In this document: positions 29,430 through 60,239 of the stretch, piece after piece
Layout of the letters: each line of letters starts with the position of its first letter
How positions within the stretch are numbered: position 1 is the stretch's first letter
Assembly: GCF_964204645.1 (NCBI RefSeq)
Contig: NC_134034.1
Span: 990,001-1,054,000 of the forward strand
Length of the DNA stretch: 64,000 bases
Reading direction: 5' to 3'
Source of the DNA: Tubulanus polymorphus
Taxonomy: Eukaryota > Nemertea > Palaeonemertea > Tubulaniformes > Tubulanidae
The notes under the pieces: generated by a model
What the model was told of the DNA's origin: nothing
Database searches by the model: none
The model's input: only the letters and a program-made list of their open reading frames with translations
Program-made: the position numbers and the translations under genes

Positions 29430-32400
29430 CTGAAAAAAATTAGGAGAAAGTAAATTAATTTTTAGATCGATCCCGGTTTATGACCCGGGCCGGGTTTCAC
29501 GAAAAAGTGGCGCCACCGCGAATCACCGGAACCCGCCCGCCGCAGTAAGACTCCTCATTACCCGCATAGCCGCCGTATTTCGTTCGTTCAACTGTTCAAT
29601 GTTAGCGATCATTTCGGGCGCGTCCCACGGGCCGTCCATCAGCCCGAACAATCTCATCATGTGCTTCTCGCTGCTGAAGTATCGCCGATGCCACGCCCAT
29701 TCCTGTTCCTCGTTCGCGTGCCAGTCCTCGAATTTCGTTTCGTCCTCCGGGTCGAGTTCCAAGTTCAAACGTTCGATATCCTCGACTATCTGAAACAACA
29801 TACGAACAACATCGCAATAATTATTGAAACCATTGAGAGAAGAGGAAGGTGCAGGATGGGCAGAGAAAAACAGATCAGCATTTTCCATATGCTGGAAATA
29901 GAAAGGGGCTGCATTCATAGTTCAGCGAATGACATCGTAGCTGCCGAAATAGCAAAACTTTCAATCCCCCAAAAATACAGGGTCCAGTTCCACAGTTCTG
30001 AGTTAAGATTTCACCCTGGGTTAAAACATTGAAAATGAATTGGTTTTAACTCAGAGTTAACTCTAACTCGCAACCGTGGAACTGGGTCCTGAAAATAAGC
30101 TAAATTTTGGTTTTATCTTTTTCACATAAGGGATCATTCATTTATTACGTACGCATAAAATTTGAATTTAAATAAATCCCCCTCGCGCCCTGTACGCAAA
30201 ATCGGCCATTTTTGCAATTTCGGCAATTGCACCGACCCCTCCCCCCTCCCCTAATGCGTACGTAATAAATGAATGACCCCTAAGCTCGATATATTTCAAA
30301 GCAATTATCAGCATTGATAGCATATTGTGACATCCACTCTGGTAGGAGCAGCAGATAGTTTGTAAGGGGTTGCTGATTTTTAGAGGGGTGGATGTAAAAT
30401 TGAAAGGGATTGCCAATCCCCTCTAAAACACTGATTAGATTTCAAAATATTTTTAAAATGGAAATATCAAGTGGAAATTTGCCAAGCATTTCCTGATTTC
30501 CGAGCACTGTCGAGCGTTAACACCTGACTTTTGAGTCAAATCAATGAAAAATTGATGCCTTCTTTTCCTATGATTAAATTATACCGAAATTTGATCAAAG
30601 ATTTCAGCTGATTAAAATTGAAAGAGTTCTTAAGTTTAACTTACAACTTCCCAATCTTCCAGATCAGTGGCATCGTAGGTCAACACTTCACCATACCTCC
30701 TACATAAACAATCAAACAACAGTTACTGACAGCACAACAACAACACATCTGCCTCTACAGATCCCCCTATGACATCATCAAATTGGCTACTATTGATTCG
30801 GTCTATAGACACTTCTAGAAAAGATGTCTACCTCCATAAATCACCCTATGACATCGTCAATTCTTACCTCATTTCTGGCAAGAAGTTGTTCTTGAAACCA
30901 TGTTCTAAACGCGATAGATATTCATCAGTTAGAACCTTTGAGTTCACTTCATCGGGCTGCAACAAATAAAACATAAACAACTTAAACAGAGTATAGAATC
31001 CAGAGGTCGGTTCACTCAAAACCAGCTGCAGTTGCAGATAAGTTGGTTCAAGATAACCGGTGCATAGTTGATATAGTAACAATTCGAAGTTCATTGTAAC
31101 TATGGTATTTATCCACTGGTTACTAATGAGCACTGCAGCCCCTGTTCGACAGTTCTGACTTCAGTTCTTAAATATTAAAAATTGAACCGTTTGGAAATGA
31201 ACTAATTTGAAAAGTTGAGGCCCAAATTTAACCAATAACTATTGAACTGGATACAAACTGTGAGGACTTATAAATACTATGGATAAAAAGATCCAATTCA
31301 ACGTGTCTCCTGGCCAAAATCAGACTCTAAATGAATTAAAGTCTTCAACTAAAAACATTGAAAGTGAACTAATCTAAGTGCGAACATAACCAAACACTCT
31401 TGATCCTGGATCCAAACAATGAGGACTTCGAAAATAATGGATAAATCGACGAGAATTTGAATGACTTACGTTGTTGCGTTTAGTTATTTGGGCGCGGACG
31501 TGTTCTAACGGAGCGTCGAGATAGATAGTCAGGTGAGGTTTCCATAATTCACAGATAGTGTTCACACGAACTCGATTATAGAAACTTAAACCTGCAGTTA
31601 AAACATCACACAATGACATCATCATTATCATCAAATAACACTTCAGATAATTCTAGAAAAGATGTCTGCCTTCATAAATCCCCCTATGATATCATCAAAT
31701 TGTCTACGTGTGATTTGATCTATTAACACTTCTAGAAAAGATGTCTGCCTTCATAAATCCCCCTATGACATCATCAAATTGTTTCCTACTAGTGATTTGA
31801 TTTATAGACACTTCTAGAAAAGATGTCTGCCTTCATCAATCCCCCTATGACATCATCAAATTACCTACAAGTGATTTGATCTATAGACACTTCTAGAAAA
31901 GATGTCTGCTTTCATCAATCCCCCTATGACATCATCAAATTGTCTACTAGTGATTTGATCTATAGACACTTCTAGAAAAGATGTCTGCCTTCATAAATCC
32001 CCCTATGACATCATGATACGAACCTCTAGGTTTGATATATCCGCATGCTCTCATGGCATCAGCGTAGACACTGTCTCCAAATACCGACCGGTCACAAACC
32101 ACACCTTGACCTAAAATAACAAAACGTTTAGAAAATCTAAATACAAGCCCAAAATCAGTTTAAACCAGTCTTATCTTAAGTCTCACCAGTAGAACTGGAC
32201 CAAAATGAGCTTAGTCCGATCTTATCTTAAGTCTCAACTGTAGAACTGGACCGAAATGAGCTTAGTACGATCTTATCTTTAGTCTCAACTGTAGAACTGG
32301 ACCGAAATGAGCTTAGTCCGATCTTATCTTAAGTCTTAACTGTAGAACTGGACCAAAATTACCTTAGTCCTGTCTTATCTTAAGTCTCAACTGTAGAACT

Positions 32401-37290: not shown

Positions 37291-38234
37291 ATCAAATATA
37301 TTGTATTGTGTTATGTAACTATAAGTGTCAAATGGTCATTTGTTTGTTTTTGAATAATACGAAGAAAACAAACATACCCCTCTCCAGGCCAGGTGTTTAC
37401 GGAAGCCCCGAGGGTCCGTAAGAGACAATAAATCCTAAAACAACCAGGTCATCTCTGCACAGGTCAAAGATCACTCGTGCGTTTGTAATCTTCCTCTAAC
37501 CCGGGGCAGGTCGTGTGCTTTACGTAATAACCTAAAGAATGAGCCTTAAATTATTCTAAAACAATACTGTCAGAAAGGGTCGTTACACGTGACTGCTGAT
37601 GTGGTCTTAATCCAGAACAGGCGTGGTGGTCAGTCGTTCGGCGCCATACATTTTATAAACGTTTAGAAACTTTGATTACGGGATTAAGCCGGCGTCCTCT
37701 GTTATAATCCCTCGACATCTGCGCGACGCTCAATCAAGAGTCTATTGTAATAAGATAAAATAACCCACTATCTACAGATTAAAAGCGCTCAAAACCGTAA
37801 ATAGTGGGTTTTTATCTCATTATCCGTTCACCACGTTTGAGTGTGGTTATCGTTCTAGAGTCTGTGGTGGGGTGGAGTATATAGTTAGACAACGTTTAGG
37901 TGACTCGAGTGGTATATTTGATTGACGGCGTGTAAGTGATAGACGTTATTAAACCATTCGGTCTCGCCGAACCCTCATAAACCGATACTCAACACCACTG
38001 AAATACCGGGCGGATATAATTTAAACGATTCTAGGGTATAAACTATACGTAGACCTGTAGAATATAATAAGATCGGGTTTTGAGTCGGGAGACGGCGTGT
38101 AGAATTCGTAGAATGGCGGTCCTCCGTGGAATCGAAGGTCGAGGTAGGTCAGAGTTTATGAGGTCACTCACATCTCGTATATAAACGCGTTCGCGTATTA
38201 TAGAAAACGTGTGAAATTTTATTCTTTGCTCGAA

Positions 38235-38465
38235 CAGGGAAGTGTGATGAGATGGAATACGGACGCTATTGTGCAGCTCTTGTCGAATGTGCGTTGTAAT
38301 TGCCCTAAAGCCGATAACGGTTCGTCGGCGAGCGCTTTGTTACGTAACGCGCCGATAAGCGATAACCAGCGAGATCGGGAATCTCCGTAATAATTCAGTT
38401 GTTTCCGAATATCGGTTTTTCATCCCATAATAAACTTATATAAAAATTCTCATCACACTTCCCTG
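38235..38465. mobile_element. hAT-like non-autonomous element, 231 bp
   Basis: The ends are CAGGGAAGTGTGATGAGA and its perfect reverse complement (18 bp). It is flanked by a 7-bp direct repeat GCTCGAA (38228-38234 and 38466-38472). CAGGG-type ends are typical of hAT transposons, whose usual duplication is 8 bp. Here 7 bp match exactly and the eighth differs. The interior is non-coding. Two copies reduced to the terminal repeats alone lie at 58440 and 59299. Confidence 0.85.
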
Positions 38466-39497
38466 GCTCGAATCAGTATTAGTTGAGACAAATAGTGCTT
38501 TGAAGGTATTAGTTTTGAGCTTTCGCCTTTAGTACGCCTTTTCGCCTTCATCGTGCCCCCCCCCCCCCCCCGGTATACTATATACTGAGTGAGAATAACT
38601 ATTAGGATAACGGTCAAGAGAACAAATTGCTTGGTTTTCATCGAAGTTTTGAACTGGTTTTTATGGAATTTTTAAACTGTTTTTTATTAAGTTTTGATCT
38701 ATTTTTTATGGAAGTTTTCAACTGGAGTCAGGATTGATAGTAGTTTGTTGTGAAAGGAGGAAACGGATTATTCAGTAATTTCTCGGATAGTTCGCTCATA
38801 AACCCGTTATTTTCACGGCCCGCCGTGAATCAGAGCGCGCGTTCACAGTAACCCATTCCACACTCACTCGATATACCGAAAAATGCCAAACGCAATCGGC
38901 CCGTTCTAAAATTTCGCTCGGGCCTGCTCGGATAGTTTTGATCGGCCCAAACGCACAAGGGTCCATATTTGGCACCGTGTGAACAGTGTGTTGATGTTCC
39001 GAACCAAATTTGAACCAAATTTGGCCCGGACCTAAAAACGATCGTGTGTGACCGTGGCTTATGAGTATGTATATATTATGTGTATTGCAGTAGCGATGTT
39101 GTATATCAGTTGATAATAATTGCTTTTGCTAATGTCACCAGCCCGGTCGTTATCATTTATCACAATCCATAATTTATTCATAATTCATCGTCGTTGTCTG
39201 TTTAAGTTAATTTATTCATGCAGTTTTGTGCGAATAACATTAAATTAACCTAATGAAAAATACGCCTTGTGTTTCACAACGTATCAATCTACCGGTTACT
39301 ATGTTATAATGTAGGTTACAGATTGTTTATCAAAGTACGAACTTGTAGCTATAAAATGTAAACTTGTAGTAGTAGCTCCTGCGGGTCTTTTGGCAAAAAA
39401 ATTGATACAAATTGTTTCCCATTTCTGTGAGCTAAAAAGTTGACCCGGTCGGCCGCCTAGCTAATACCATGTACATGACAAAGCTAACAATAACCCA

Positions 39498-39529: not shown

Positions 39530-39578
39530 GCAATTATCTAGTTAGATAACTAGATAACTTATCTAACTAGATAATTGC
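39530..39578. repeat. Perfect inverted repeat, 20-bp arms, 9-nt loop
   Basis: The arms GCAATTATCTAGTTAGATAA and its reverse complement flank CTAGATAAC. It begins 2 bp after the previous palindrome and shares GCAATTATCTA with it. Confidence 0.95.
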
Positions 39579-42981: not shown

Positions 42982-45900
42982 ATGGCGTTCGCGTTCGAAA
43001 ATGAACCGGATCATGATCCGTTTATCGACTCTCTGCTCGACTTCCAACTCCGAACGAAGCTATCGACTGAACGAAACCAAGCCGTCATTGAACACCGCCG
43101 ACAAATAGAATTCATACTATCTGAGAATAAGAACGCGGCCAATCTAGCCTCCGACCGTAAGGTGTCGCCATCTAGTTTCACCGCGCGTCGCGATCAGGAT
43201 ACGGATAAGGACTTGGACGTGCGGTCGGGTTCGACTAGCCCACCGACGTCAGCGTCACCTGGCGTCGATTTTCCAAATCATCGACAGAAGTCTATCGATA
43301 TTGTGCGGCAGTATATGGCGCGGAATGAATTGGACCCGGCCATCGAAATTCTCCATTACACGTTGCCGAACGACGCGACCAGCAGAAATCTCCTCAGCAC
43401 GATATTTTTCACCAAGGACGCGACGACGATTCCGAGAAACCGAAAGAACATTTGCTATCACGCGATAAAGAAACATTTAGCGCGGGAGGACCCGTCATCG
43501 AGGAGCAGTTTGGGTTTCATCGTCGAAAATTACGTACGGTTGACGACTGATAAATCGATGATACAAAGACCCGTAAGCTATCCGCCTGCGAGATGCCGCC
43601 CCAATGCTCGTCAGTATCCGCCTGCGACTCAGAGTCGTCCCAATAATGGATTGCCTGTTCGTCAGGGTCCGCCTGCAACTCAAAGTCGTCCCGATAATGG
43701 ATGGCCCGCTCGTCAGTGTCCGCCTGCAACTCAGAGTTATCCCAATAATGGATTGCCTGTTCGTCAGTGTCCGCCTGCAACTCAAAGTCGTCCCGATAAT
43801 GGATGGCCCGCTCGTCAGTGTCCGCCTGCAACTCAGAATCATCCCAGTAATCGATTGCCTGTTCGTCAGTGTCCGCCTGCAACTCAGAGTCGTCCCGATA
43901 ATGGATTGCCTGTTCGTCAGTGTCCGCCTGCAACTCAGAGTCGTCCCGATAATGGATTGCCGGTTCAACAGTGTCCGCCTGCGACTCAGAGTCGTCCCGA
44001 TAATGGATTGCCGGTTCAACAGTGTCCGCCTGCGACTCAGAGTCGTCCCAATAATGGATTGCCTGTTCATCAGTGGAACGGAACGGCGTCATCTAGCGGA
44101 AAAGTTCTCAATAACTTCAACACCTCACTGTCCGATTCTGGAATCCCACAACAACGCCACCAGCCACCAGTGTCGAGGCCGCCACCATCCACGGTGCGTA
44201 TTGGAAATCCAGAAACCAAGTCGCAAGAGAATGCATCCGTTCCGCTAGCAGCACCAACATACATCGGACCGTCAACCGCTTCTCGACGGGTTCTTCAACC
44301 AAACGTAGATCACCATTCAGCAGCGCGGGCAAGTTTTCGGACGGCAGAATTGGATTGGAGTTCTTCGTTCTGGTCACCTGCCACCGTACACGCTAAATCG
44401 GTACCAGTTGCATCCGCAACAAAACCTCTATCAGCTACACATACTGCGACACAGTCAGCTGCATCTAAAAGTGTACCAGTTGCAGCCGCTACTAGACCTC
44501 TATCAACTACACATTCTGCATCACAGTCAGCTGCATCTAAAAGTGCTCCAGAAGCAGCCGCTACTAGACCTCTATCAACTACACATTCTGCATCACAGTC
44601 AGGATCACCTAAAAATGTACCAGTTGCAGCCGCTACTAGACCTCTATCAACTACACATTCTGCATCACAGTCAGCTGCATCTAAAAGTGCTCCAGAAGCA
44701 GCCGCTACTAGACCTCTATCAACTACACATTCTGCATCACAGTCAGCTGCATCTAAAAGTGCTCCAGAAGCAGCCGCTACTAGACCTCTATCAACTACAC
44801 ATTCTGCATCACAGTCAGGATCACCTAAAAATGTACCAGTTGCAGCCGCTACTAGACCTCTATCAACTACACATTCTGCATCACAGCCAGCTGCATCTAA
44901 AAGTGCTCCAGAAGCAGCCGCTACTAGACCTCTATCAACTACACATTCTGCATCACAGTCAGGATCACCTAAAAATGTACCAGTTGCAGCCGCTACTAGA
45001 CCTCCATCAGCTACACATTCTGCATCACAGCCAGCTGCATCTAAAAGTGCTCCAGTTGCATCCGCTACGAAACCTCTACCAGCTACACATTCTGCATCAC
45101 AGTCGGCTGCATCTAAAAGTGTACCAGTTGCAGCCGCAACTAAACCTCAATCAGCTACCGATGTACCGCATTCTGCGACACAGTCAGGATCACCTAAAAA
45201 TGTACCAGTTGCAGCCGCTACTAGACCTCTATCAACTACACATTCTGCATCACAGTCAGGATCACCTAAAAATGTACCAGTTGCAGCCGCTACTAGACCT
45301 TCATCAGCTACCGATGTACCACATTCTGCGACACAGTCATCTGCATCTCAAAGTGCTCCAGTTGCAGCCGCGACGAAACCTGCAATTTCTACTGAGGCAC
45401 TGAAACGTGAAGCACCTAATGCAGCTACTGCTGCTGCATCTAAAAGTGCTCCAGTTGCAGCCACGGCGAAACCTGCAATTTCTACTGAGGCACTGAAACG
45501 TGAAGGACCTAATGCAGCCACTGCTGCTGCTGCTGGTGCTGTTGTACCAAAACCAGCAGTTTATTCGGAACCGGCTCCAAAAACTGAACTACTTTACTTC
45601 GACGACTTGGTCCAGTCTGGTTTACTGAACCGATTAGATATCCGTGACGTAGACAACGAACCCGAACCCGATATAGACGTGTGTAGTATAAACACCATCG
45701 ACGAGATTGACGGGCTCGTCATCAAAATCGAACCGCCAGACGATAACGATTCGACGACTCAACCACTAGACGACGCTTTCGATACACCAGAGGGCGCTCA
45801 CGAATCCGTATCGACAGAACTCGAAGTGGACGACGGTTTATTTTCGTTAAGCTGTTTGAATTCGCAGTTAGTTGTTGCTCCCGAAATTGCCGTTTTCACC

Positions 45901-56334: not shown

Positions 56335-57130
56335 GGTTCTTTATAAATAGCGGGGTTTTTTTATACCTGAAAATAGTTTATTTAAATCATTCATTCTGGA
56401 AAAGGTCGGCGACCATGACATCTAGCTGCAGTTCCGGTCGTGACAAACTGTTTCCGCCTTCTGTGTCATGACATTCCTGTAACTGACCCGTGGTATCGTG
56501 AAAATACAATCAATCCCAAACAACCTTTCTAAGAACCGTGGGATTTTTCATTTTAAAGTAGGGATTGACCCTTTATTTAATTGGTTGGTAGATTTCGTTT
56601 GATTTGTATTGATTGTTGTCCCTTGGAAACCCAACACACCTGTCGGGAGTGAAACAGGACGAACCGTGTTATTAAACTCAAACTGATGATATGATTTCAA
56701 CATAATGTCGATAAAAAGCCTTCGAGCTGGGCCCCTCGTCACTGTAAAGCCTTATTTAGATATTCGCTCCTTTTTTCTGCAGTCCTTCCACGTAGAGAAT
56801 ACTCAATTAATAAAACAAATTTTAATTTTTTCCCCGTTCCCTTTCATTTTCAAACGCCTATAATAGAAAATAATTTACCCATTCAAGTTTTTGCTCGCCA
56901 TCATCCTACTTTTTCCTTGAAAACAAAATGCTGTACTCTAGGTAATTCTGAAAGGCCTTTCTAATGAAAATGACGAACAGTTAAGAATGAGTTTAAAATG
57001 CATTGAATACTTACTGACAATCCAAACCTCGAAACTAATGAAAATACGAAACCAATGAAATGTCGTCTTATTGAAACTGGTCCGGTATCAAAGCATGTAT
57101 TACTTATCAATTCTGTTCTGATTCCCAGAA

Positions 57131-57499
57131 ATGTTGTTACGCCACTATCGCGTCCTTCAGAGCGACGAAATTATAAATTCACATACACATTTGTCGGACG
57201 TTATCACAAACAAAGTCCACAACCGCGATTTTAAGTTTTCGTACGTACCCGAGGTGAATATATCCCGGCTCGGATATCCGAATACGGCAAATGCGGGTGA
57301 TATTTTCGGTGCAGTCACCACTGTGGAGACTTACCGCAGAAATGAACGTCAACGATGGACAGTAGAACTCAATACTACTGCACCGCGGCGGCTATTCGTG
57401 ACGTCACTCGACGCTGATTGGTTAAAATCCCTCTGCTTGTCGTGCAATGCGCACGAGACTACCGTTGAGAATACCTTGATTCTTCAGCCCAAAGTTTAA
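57131..57499 (+). CDS. Possible terminal coding exon, 122 residues, unknown
   Basis: A 369-nt open frame begins two bases after a good acceptor (TTCTGATTCCCAG, ending 57128). The composition looks protein-like (for example SRLGYPNTANAGDIFGAVTT, then TAPRRLFVTSLDADWLK). It ends at TAA. It could start at its own ATG or be the last exon of a gene whose earlier exons I cannot see. No domain recognised. Confidence 0.35.
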   Translation: MLLRHYRVLQSDEIINSHTHLSDVITNKVHNRDFKFSYVPEVNISRLGYPNTANAGDIFGAVTTVETYRRNERQRWTVELNTTAPRRLFVTSLDADWLKSLCLSCNAHETTVENTLILQPKV

Positions 57500-58407
57500 A
57501 TCTCATCTTTAAAAAAAAGCAATTGATTCAGCCCCAAACCAACCCCATACCGCACTTACCCCCCCCCCCCCCACCCCCACTTGACCATATGGGATGATTG
57601 GCGCTGAGGTAATGGGGGCTTGCAATTGAGGTCTGATTTGAGGCGGGATTTCTATGATATTCTAGCAAAGCTATTTTCGGTCCTATTCGTGAAGAATGGT
57701 CGACGTCGGAATTACGGAACAGAGCGAAGAGACTGAGAGTTAACTAACAGTTCGTAATACCAGAACTGGAAATAATTTATTTTTACACACGAACTATTCA
57801 TATTCATTGAGATACGAGACGCGGTGTGGAGACATGGAAAATGATACGAAAACAAAGGTGACGAGTAGCGACATGACAGAGAGATAAACAACTATTAACG
57901 CATTAAACACAGACAAACCGTCTCAAGAAACAAAGAGCTATTACACGTAAACATATAAACATTAAAGGAATATAGATGAAATATATACGACAATTATCAT
58001 GGACATTTAGTGTTCTTAAAATATCCGATCTTCGGTGGTTCTAGGAATTTCATTCCGCGGATTATAAATGCCTCCCCTTTTCCAGAAGTTACGGATACCT
58101 GTCCTCGTGGGAAGCCGTCCGTACGAGTAAAGCGCGTGGAGCGTTGCCCCGCTGGAACTCTATTGGTCCCATTAGAACACTGTATATTCAATCAGGATAT
58201 AATATAGATACTGTTCAATAACAGTGAACTTGGATCTTCATTTGGCCGCCATGTTTCCCCTAGGTAAATCGGATTTCCATAGCTATTGTTATGTGACTTA
58301 CACAAACCCATCCGCATCTGTCGGGAACGAAACAAGGGGTTTGTTTTTGGAATCGGAAATCGAAGTACAGATTGGATGGTCGATCGTATCACGGACGTAT
58401 TATCTAC

Positions 58408-58580
58408 AGGCGCTGCAGTTGGTCATAAGTTGGTTAGAGCAGGGAAGTGTGATGATGTCACACTTCCCTGGTTAGAGTTAACCAGCAGCGGCGGATATTT
58501 GACAAAAGTGACAATTAACTGTTCTTTGTTTCTATGGTTTCTATCCGCTGGTTGTCTTTAATCAACTTTTCAGCAACTGA
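58408..58580. mobile_element. Short element of the TTGCTCAAAAGTTGG family, interrupted copy
   Basis: It matches the copy at 58814 over TAAGTTGGTTAGAGTTAACC (after removing a 31-bp insertion), the following CAGCAG, TGACAATTAA and the closing AACTTTTCAGCAAC. It hosts the hAT-like mini-insertion at 58440-58470. Confidence 0.6.
58440..58470. mobile_element. 31-bp hAT-like mini-insertion with 7-bp target duplication
   Basis: 13-bp arms, CAGGGAAGTGTGA and its perfect reverse complement, around TGATG. It is flanked by GTTAGAG on both sides (58433-58439 and 58471-58477). The arms are the terminal repeats of the 231-bp element at 38235. Confidence 0.9.
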
Positions 58581-58813
58581 CTCTACGGTGTCGGTCCTAA
58601 GTCAAGCACCTTTTCGGAAAAAAATGCTCCGACAAAAAGAAATCATTATTAATTTTTACCAAATCGTCACCGATTGTGCGGTAGATGTATTTGATTGCCA
58701 AATGCCCAATTACGCCCACGGCTTAGCTTCAATTGTTGTTACTGATTTACATCCTTATTAGGCTCGGGGATGTTGAGTTTTGAAAAAGTTGCGTCAATTT
58801 ATGGAACACTCTC

Positions 58814-58941
58814 GGGCCTGTTGCTCAAAAGTTGTTTAGAGTTAACCAGCAGATAGTTGGCAGAGTGACAATTGAAAGTACATTGTTACTATGGTATTTA
58901 TTGGCCAGTTATCTTTAACCATCCTTTGAGCAACAGGCCCC
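58814..58941. mobile_element. Short inverted-repeat element, TTGCTCAAAAGTTGG family (128 bp)
   Basis: The ends are GGGCCTGTTGCTCAAAAGTT and the inverse of GGGCCTGTTGCTCAAAGGAT. GTTTAGAGTTAACCAGCAG lies inside uninterrupted. Related copies are at 31020, 40848 and 58408. Confidence 0.8.
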
Positions 58942-59298
58942 TGTAGTTTAATCAACACGTCCATGGTCAAATTTACAAAACATTCATGTATTACTCATGA
59001 ACCTATTTTAGGCAACACGCCCGCATCGACACGATTTAAGATGGACCAATTAGTCAGGATAAATTATTGACTTAGGACTGAATAGAATGATATTACACAA
59101 AGTATTTCAAATTTCATACATCCCCGAAGCGGGTAAACGCACTATTAAAATGCGCGCGCGACCCGCTGATAAGCAGCTACAACACGAACGCTATATTTAA
59201 CAGTTCATTGTTATTCGTGTAGCTATTATAGTAGTTCGTTTAAACTGATGCGCGCACTTCCTCCACGTGAGAGCGATAATGACAGGCCTTCGTTATTG

Positions 59299-59329
59299 CA
59301 GGGAAGTGTGATCTCATCACACTTCCCTG
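59299..59329. mobile_element. 31-bp hAT-like mini-insertion with 7-bp target duplication, second case
   Basis: 13-bp arms, CAGGGAAGTGTGA and its reverse complement, around TCTCA. It is flanked by GTTATTG (59292-59298 and 59330-59336). Read on the minus strand it is the complete 18-bp left terminal repeat plus the last 13 bp of the right one. Confidence 0.9.
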
Positions 59330-59481
59330 GTTATTGGCAGGTATGTGACTGGTGAGTTGGTTCGCGTGGGACAAACCGAATAACTTGATAGAAATCAAGT
59401 CGGTGTAGTAAATAACAGGGAAAAACATCCCTTGATTTCGAGATGAGTACGAACATTGGAATGAACGAATTTGGTGTCAAA

Positions 59482-59822
59482 CCATCCTCCCCCGACAGGG
59501 ATTCGAACCTGATGGCATCGAGATTGCCACGGCACGAAACCCTGCCATAATCGACCGTGTGCGCAGATACATGCGCAGTTCAGATGATGTGATTTTTAGC
59601 CAATCAGAAATCCCGTTTTATTTTAGCCCGGGTTTTCCCATTTATAGTTCATCCTTGAAATTTGCCTCAACGATTATACAACGAGCGATCTGATTGGTGC
59701 CGCAAGTTTTCGTTCGTAAAGCTGCGCATGTACCTGCGCACCCGGTCTACTGATGCAGGGGTTCGTGCCGTGGCTGAGTGTAGCGATGCCATCAGGTTCG
59801 AGTCCCTGCAGAGGGAGGATGG
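59482..59822. mobile_element. 340-bp inverted-repeat element with tRNA-like boxes in its ends, copy 1
   Basis: The terminal inverted repeats are about 95 bp, starting CCATCCTCCCCCGACAGGG. Near the right end GTGGCTGAGTG fits a Pol III A box, and GGTTCGAGTCC, 14 nt later, fits a B box perfectly. The left end, inverted, keeps GGTTCGAATCC. There is no coding capacity. It is about 98% identical to the direct copy at 60949. Confidence 0.85.
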
Positions 59823-59879
59823 AGTCAAACTAAACCGTTTGTAAACAGTCGAAGAAATCCCACAATTCGAATTTTATAC

Positions 59880-59960
59880 GATATGATTTATCAAAACGAA
59901 ACCGCAACGTTTCTGCTGTTGACTAACAGCCATCATCAGGTGAAATGTGACCCGTAACAG
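59880..59960 (-). repeat. Hammerhead-like core, intact CTGATGA and GAAAC
   Basis: On the minus strand CTGATGA is followed by a GCTGTT/AACAGC hairpin and then GAAACGTT. About 50 bp further lies AATTGTGGGATTTCTTC, as in the repeats at 7165 and 34654. No pairing for stem I is visible, so ribozyme activity is not supported by this sequence alone. Confidence 0.5.
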
Positions 59961-60239
59961 AAGTAGCATATCATATGAACTTACAGGACGTAAACAAATG
60001 CTATATGCGTCATAATTAGAATTAACAGAACAAGCGACCATTTAAACCGAGTATGATAAGTCTTCCTTACTCGGTATATGTTATGCCAATCTCAGTCGCA
60101 GGGATTCGCATCCGATGACATCGTCGCAGGCTGTTGATTGTATCAGAATTATAAATGGTACCTACAAGTCACAATCTCCTGGATTTGAATCTGAGAGTAT
60201 CATCGTGCCTGTGTTTCTATACTTGATTATTGGGTGTAG

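Follow-up and report, generated by a model that had tools for sequence, protein, structure and literature searches.

The closest described systems are DNA transposons of the P superfamily. In Drosophila, the cut that P transposase makes in the 5' strand lies 17 nt within the inverted repeat (PMC7776569), and 17-nt single-stranded tails stay on the donor ends after P excision (PMC2895639); since the cut lies 17 nt inside each end, a scar should hold at most that much per end. Repair junctions of the Drosophila P{wa} element combine an 8-bp duplication with at most 17 nt from each end, and are closed through 1–3 nt of microhomology, bluntly or with templated insertions (PMC2895639). Galileo, a Drosophila member of the superfamily, produces 7-bp duplications with a palindromic target preference of GTANTAC or GTATTAC (PMC4168063). 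The P elements and P-MITEs of Anopheles gambiae are natural families with terminal inverted repeats (TIRs) of 27–31 bp and short non-autonomous copies; they have 8-bp duplications and THAP domains, and a THAP domain is present in all P proteins known in 2006 (PMC1562414). The zebrafish Pdre2 / THAP9 system belongs to the same superfamily, and Pdre2, with a 13-bp TIR and an 8-bp duplication, could be excised in cell assays (PMC10983969). The word 'footprint' is absent from the text of the Anopheles paper (PMC1562414), and the covered portions of text mention no scars of the kind described below for Galileo and no genome-wide scars for Pdre2 / THAP9 (PMC10983969). A literature search by terms, within the portions of text it reached, revealed no recognised report of natural genome-wide P-type scars, and prior reports may exist.

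In the window, which is the whole 64,000-nt stretch of DNA that was analysed, a 31-bp insertion reads CAGGGAAGTGTGA TGATG TCACACTTCCCTG and is flanked on both sides by a perfect GTTAGAG, as the original prediction of an 'ends only' insertion had described. It consists of 16 nt, the dinucleotide TG and 13 nt (Table 1). This 31-bp sequence was assigned, with a probability of about 95%, as the excision footprint of a P-superfamily DNA transposon that was sealed by end joining. The single 31-bp copy known to the original prediction is real, but a second one in the same window had been missed. The second scar occurs approximately 830 bp downstream of the focal scar, carries a different duplication, and can be split as 14 + 17 nt or an equivalent. 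The 231-bp element of the window has 13-nt ends identical to the arms of the focal scar.

Table 1. Coordinates of the scars, the short element and the uninserted repeat copy in the window.
Feature	Positions	Strand	Remark
Left 7-bp target-site duplication GTTAGAG of focal scar	58433–58439		
Left arm of focal scar	58440–58455	+	first 16 nt of the 33-bp terminal inverted repeat
Filler TG at focal scar junction	58456–58457		2 nt
Right arm of focal scar	58458–58470	-	last 13 nt of the element
Right 7-bp target-site duplication GTTAGAG of focal scar	58471–58477		
Left duplication GTTATTG of second scar	59292–59298		
Second 31-bp putative excision scar	59299–59329		left arm 12–14 nt, right arm 17–19 nt, depending on placement of a 2-nt overlap
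Right duplication GTTATTG of second scar	59330–59336		
Left 7-bp duplication GCTCGAA of 231-bp element	38228–38234		
231-bp internally deleted P-type element	38235–38465	+	
Right 7-bp duplication GCTCGAA of 231-bp element	38466–38472		
Diverged copy of the dispersed repeat hosting the focal scar, insertion absent	58814–58941	+	paralogous empty site, target 7-mer 58835–58841

The 13-mer arm was detected six times in the window with up to two mismatches permitted, all six matches being exact, compared to a mean of 1.08 in shuffled sequences; a count of six was reached in none of 100 shuffles. A palindrome scan of the window (22–49 bp, arms of at least 10 nt, flanking duplications of 6–9 bp) produced four rows, namely the two 31-bp scars and a single hairpin reported as two rows, while each of 15 random sequences with the dinucleotide transitions of the window produced none. 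The hairpin, with 19-bp arms at 39531–39577, is located inside a 29-bp tandem repeat and was not taken as a scar. The window is rich in minisatellites overall (84 rows), and long tandem arrays of 51, 72 and 93 bp extend over 43608–45530, where coding may be possible. No Rfam family could be found at 57000–60000.

The focal scar is hosted by a dispersed repeat, and the empty-site comparison of the original prediction was repeated by joining the two flanks without one of the GTTAGAG copies. The joined flanks aligned with 58820–58934 at 75% over 122 positions, the insert being absent there. Thus, an uninserted copy does exist; however, this copy is diverged, reading TTTAGAG where the focal site has GTTAGAG, and therefore represents a paralogue rather than an empty allele. 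The repeat is approximately 128 bp long with imperfect inverted ends GGGCCTGTTGCTCAAA, and stretches related to it were observed near 31025–31122 and 58469–58581.

A genome-wide census of family 1, which comprises the loci with the same 33-bp ends as the focal scar, was conducted on one assembly of 267.8 Mb in 77 contigs, in which the window corresponds to G000:C10:990001-1054000. The pattern consisted of an arm followed nearby by its reverse complement, both as exact 13-nt matches, which short-armed and mutated scars escape. It gave 88 matches of 26–56 bp (gap of 0–30 nt between the arms) and one further match of 57–117 bp (gap of 31–91 nt), and the reversed-pattern control gave 0 in both size ranges. 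The 89 rows represent 88 places, one match being nested, and were pruned to 83 independent loci by dropping the nested sub-match (L084:271) and the duplicated loci L067, L012, L013, L002:2185 and L007. Perfect 7-bp duplications were present at 76 of the 83 loci and duplications with one mismatch at four, while three (L058, L099 and L102) had no matching duplication; duplications longer than 7 bp were found at none of the 83. The further copies and the duplicated flanks on which the original prediction depended were therefore both recovered. The commonest bases of the target 7-mer in the 83 loci were G-T-T-A-A-A-C, with T almost as frequent at position 4, and the 7-bp length is the same as in Galileo (PMC4168063).

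Reducing the arms to 9 nt gave 128 matches at 18–34 bp, of which 58 had been counted before. Judging from the approximately 50 of 128 that were listed, the 70 further matches include those of a sister end type, CAGGGAAGTGTAATGAGA, as well as one or more nested matches. When the 231-bp element was used as a query, 40 of 243 candidates were scored, so that older, diverged copies exist outside the exact-end counts. Scars were found close to other scars or to elements more often than expected: one pair of scars was located within 1 kb of each other, compared to 0.025 expected, and two scar-to-element-end pairs were found, compared to 0.06 expected, although these are small numbers.

Analysis of the joins revealed 37 different junctions in the 83 loci. 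Simple joins of arms up to 18 nt, of which the search pattern allows only 19 distinct forms, accounted for 53 loci, and filler of 1–25 nt was present in 30. Arms of no more than 18 nt could explain 163 of the 166 arms; the three that exceed 18 nt (19, 20 and 20) were among the 60 arms next to filler. If arm ends were distributed uniformly over TIR positions 13–33, the probability that all 166 would be 20 nt or shorter is below 10 to the minus 60, by a hand estimate that treats the arms as independent. The parent TIR, at 33 bp, is longer than the arms, and sequence identity therefore does not force a stop at 18 nt. Because the search patterns need arms of at least 9–13 nt, the distribution of arm lengths is truncated by design on its lower side. 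The patterns are also blind to joins in which a long microhomology has removed the ends; the fly data include this class, at microhomologies of 5–10 nt (PMC2895639).

An overlap of 1–2 nt was found at 30 of the 83 junctions. Several fillers are made of end-like pieces (CACTTC, AGGGAAG, CACACTTCACA and CACACAGGGAAGTGTGATGACA), and CA or TG fillers were present in 12 of the 30 filler loci; the fillers resemble the templated insertions studied in fly polymerase theta mutants (PMC2895639). Identical forms recurred among the 83 loci, with a 26-bp form at eight loci, a 34-bp form at seven, and one 29-bp and one 31-bp form at six each. Simple joins came back at different sites, and a preference for a few joins would explain this recurrence of short forms. 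Three forms with a 2-nt filler also recurred, one of them four times and two twice each, while none of the 11 family-1 loci with a filler of at least 4 nt did. A single interior dispersed at unrelated sites, as in a MITE, was thus not what was found. The scars instead show a duplication on both sides, arms no longer than the stagger, and microhomology, blunt or filler joins, which is the arrangement of the Drosophila P{wa} junctions; those were induced in laboratory flies (PMC2895639), whereas the scars described here are natural and many.

A second P family could be identified through a locus found via PF21787. Its element, L106:1329-7218, is flanked by a 7-bp duplication, contains an open frame of 773 codons and has 31-bp ends CATGGACTCTAAAACGAAGGGACGTGAAACG that are unrelated to those of family 1. 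The expectation that its scars would end near CATGGACTCTAAAACGAA, at position 18, was written down before the search. The search with these ends gave 170 matches against 0 in the control. Among the approximately 50 of these 170 that were listed, none extended past TIR position 19 by eye, and the 35 loci that were fetched had arms up to 18 nt, with four ambiguous cases of 19 and none longer. The predicted 18-nt ceiling held, and the footprint features of family 1 were thereby replicated with unrelated ends.

The 35 fetched loci are a non-random set, taken from the first contigs and deliberately including repeated forms, with duplicated loci kept in; in this set the 7-mers were perfect at 12 loci, had one mismatch at 10 and at least two at 13. 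At five loci with the sister ends CAGGGAAGTGTAATGAGA (L145–L149), no 7-mer was perfect, three had one mismatch and two were worse. We tentatively read the mismatched 7-mers of the L106 family and of the sister-end loci as age or rearrangement; L116, L117 and L135, whose arms are 10–12 nt and whose 7-mers are mismatched, are possibly something other than scars. Four loci with duplicated flanks share one insertion site, which is occupied by a 47-bp scar in three of them (L110, L111 and L112) and by a 31-bp scar in the fourth (L144). The latter was dropped as proof of independent excision, as its alignment also fits a 16-nt deletion with one substitution. Three further P loci of 9 kb each (L107–L109) had no recognisable ends.

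An ends-only mobile element was considered as another explanation of the census. Here, a transposase would recognise and move palindromes of 26–38 bp, each making its own 7-bp duplication. The perfect ends, the perfect duplications at 76 of 83 loci and the recurrence of some identical forms are in agreement with this, and its best case is the form with a 2-nt filler found four times, together with the two found twice; but given the frequent CA and TG fillers such forms can also be independent, and simple joins make up the forms that recur most. If scars moved, each would bring its filler along to every new site, so the long-filler singletons of family 1 speak against movement. In the L106 family, the repeated long-filler scars (47 bp in L110–L112, 39 bp in L113–L115, 27–29 bp in L116, L117 and L135) share their flanks and therefore indicate locus duplication, not transposition. 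In addition, the end sequences required by Drosophila P measure at least 138 bp and 216 bp (PMC1562414). The scars appear not to move, and the ends-only element was rejected on junction diversity as very unlikely. The suggestion of the original prediction that a transposon remains mobile even when it lacks an interior does not fit 37 different junctions, an arm ceiling of 18 nt and unrepeated long fillers. Its other suggestion, a loss of the interior after insertion, is supported, with excision as the mechanism.

Inverted repeats can promote deletions, and a generic deletion through slippage, or through a palindrome or cruciform between the inverted repeats, would need no transposase. The overlap of 1–2 nt at 30 junctions is compatible with such an origin. 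The breakpoints would, however, be expected to scatter through the 33-bp TIR and beyond, whereas 163 of 166 arms end within 18 nt, a single match was found at 57–117 bp compared to 88 at 26–56 bp, and the ceiling was repeated in a family with an unrelated end sequence. Generic deletion is thus an exceedingly improbable origin of these loci, and excision of a P-type element is retained as the reading.

The parent elements were collected with a 28-nt end pattern, CAGGGAAGTGTGATGAGATGGAATACGG, which is longer than any scar arm and gave 103 matches, 100 of which were listed. Among those listed, 36 elements could be defined by neighbouring ends less than 12 kb apart, and 28 ends were unpaired. Thirty of these elements measured 2.1–2.2 kb, eight of them exactly 2221 bp, and the others 5910 bp (two), 5511 bp (one), 4847 bp (one) and 181 bp (two). 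Matches to PF21787 (TNP-like_RNaseH_N) were located inside both 5910-bp elements and the 5511-bp element. An ORF of one of these three elements, at L029:783-2633 (in G000:C6:18193600-18199715), matched PF21787 (E value 2.4e-26). It also matched structure 6p5a, the P transposase of Drosophila, with an E value of 1.9e-7, D230 and D303 of the structure being aligned to Asp. In a separate C-terminal ORF, E531 was aligned to Glu, weakly (E 0.86), and the match of this ORF to PF21789 was just under the cut-off. We take D230, D303 and E531 of 6p5a to be its catalytic residues. By this predicted P-type RNase H catalytic domain, the focal family is a member of the P superfamily.

The TIR starts with CA. 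Both L029 and the L016 copy of 2221 bp have an exact TIR of 33 bp, and the ends of L106 are 31 bp, as is usual for the roughly 30-bp TIRs of the superfamily; Galileo differs, with TIRs of about 300 bp to 1.2 kb (PMC3573991). A 7-bp duplication was found at five of six elements inspected (L030–L034), while the flanks of L029 did not match; L033 and L034 are apparently duplicates of a single locus. The duplication length is within the 7–8 bp of the superfamily, being 7 bp at the scars and 8 bp in Drosophila P. In ORFs read directly from the genomic sequence, Pfam zf-AD scored 26.9 bits at residues 7–64 of the L029 ORF, against a cut-off of 28, and 31.2 bits, above the cut-off, in the 2221-bp copy; no THAP domain was found by Pfam at the start of the transposase ORFs. 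Among the Pfam matches of the three ORFs scanned there was no GTP-binding domain model and no hAT domain. The same ends were also sought in two P-type loci of about 3 kb each, and one match with three mismatches was obtained in L014 and none in L015. In both P families, a second gene lies on the strand opposite to the transposase (L029:3855-4847, minus; in the L106 element, a plus frame that begins at position 949 of the element). A single comparison showed their products to be related (25% identity over 254 aa, E 2e-20), and Pfam gave no name for that of L029.

The ends of hAT elements resemble CAGGG-type ends with a short flanking duplication, a likeness that speaks for the 'hAT-like' label of the original prediction. 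Against it, hAT donor sites are not known to keep any TIR. This label is practically untenable: the same ends bound P-superfamily transposase genes and are therefore not hAT, the three ORFs contain no hAT domain, no duplication in the 83 loci exceeds 7 bp, where hAT elements make 8 bp, and hAT donor flanks are hairpinned and leave a random footprint (PMC3878927).

According to the excision reading, a P-type element would insert and duplicate 7 bp, and its transposase would later cut one strand at the outer end of the element and the other approximately 18 nt inside the TIR. The element would depart and leave up to 18 nt of each TIR on the chromosome as 3' overhangs, which the cell would join by microhomology, bluntly, or with a short and often end-like filler. 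The product would have the order duplication, left arm, filler if any, right arm, duplication. By analogy with Drosophila P, we infer the 18-nt stagger with 3' overhangs, and polymerase-theta-like end joining presumably made the filler. The 231-bp element matches 215 nt at the left end of the 2221-bp copy and precisely the last 18 nt of that copy, with a 2-nt overlap between the parts. Retention of exactly 18 nt of the right end fits a gap repair abandoned on one side; such an interrupted repair may have copied one side from a template while the other stayed as the cut had left it. The evidence for excision consists of scar loci read from one assembly, from which we infer the excision itself. 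Against the P-excision reading stand the 7 bp and 18 nt found here, compared to the 8-bp duplications and 17-nt tails of Drosophila P (PMC2895639), the three of 83 loci without matching duplications, the 13 of 35 fetched L106-family loci with at least two mismatches and the lack of a perfect 7-mer at the five sister-end loci, and zf-AD instead of THAP at the start of the transposase; the A. gambiae elements likewise differ in their 8-bp duplications and THAP domains (PMC1562414).

A shared target and possible rearrangements were also observed. At L016:138-2414 (G000:C8:4799037 onward; C8:4799044), three copies of GTCAAAC occur in a row as duplication, 35-bp scar, duplication, 2221-bp element and duplication, and therefore indicate two insertions at one target. 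L007 consists of the scar and one flank of L006, inverted and 746 kb away, with a different other flank. L006/L007 and the unmatched loci L058, L099 and L102 are possibly transposition-linked rearrangements.

Taken together, at least two P families with unrelated ends probably share a stagger of 18 nt and a target spacing of 7 bp, compared to 17 and 8 for Drosophila P, and in one family the encoded P transposase starts with a zf-AD-like zinc finger. Donor breaks in the germline are probably end-joined so often that readable scars (83 independent loci in one family) rival exact-end copies (36 paired elements and 28 unpaired ends among the 100 matches listed). If this is true, the scars would be a fossil cleavage assay for transposases that nobody has purified. 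From them, the site at which an uncharacterised transposase probably cuts could be read to approximately one nucleotide, together with its target spacing and the germline repair spectrum. The assembly alone provides 83 independent natural scars in one family, while the fly scars in the cited work are laboratory-induced, and well over a hundred further candidates are present in related and unrelated P families. Scanning the inner limit of the arms against the full TIR length could be applied to any genome with P-superfamily elements. For annotation, a short and perfect palindrome between duplications is not necessarily a miniature element, and such palindromes ought not to be scored as transpositions. 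The mechanism itself is known; it is the scale and the near-nucleotide ceiling that make these scars useful as a natural record of how P-type elements are cut out and the breaks repaired.
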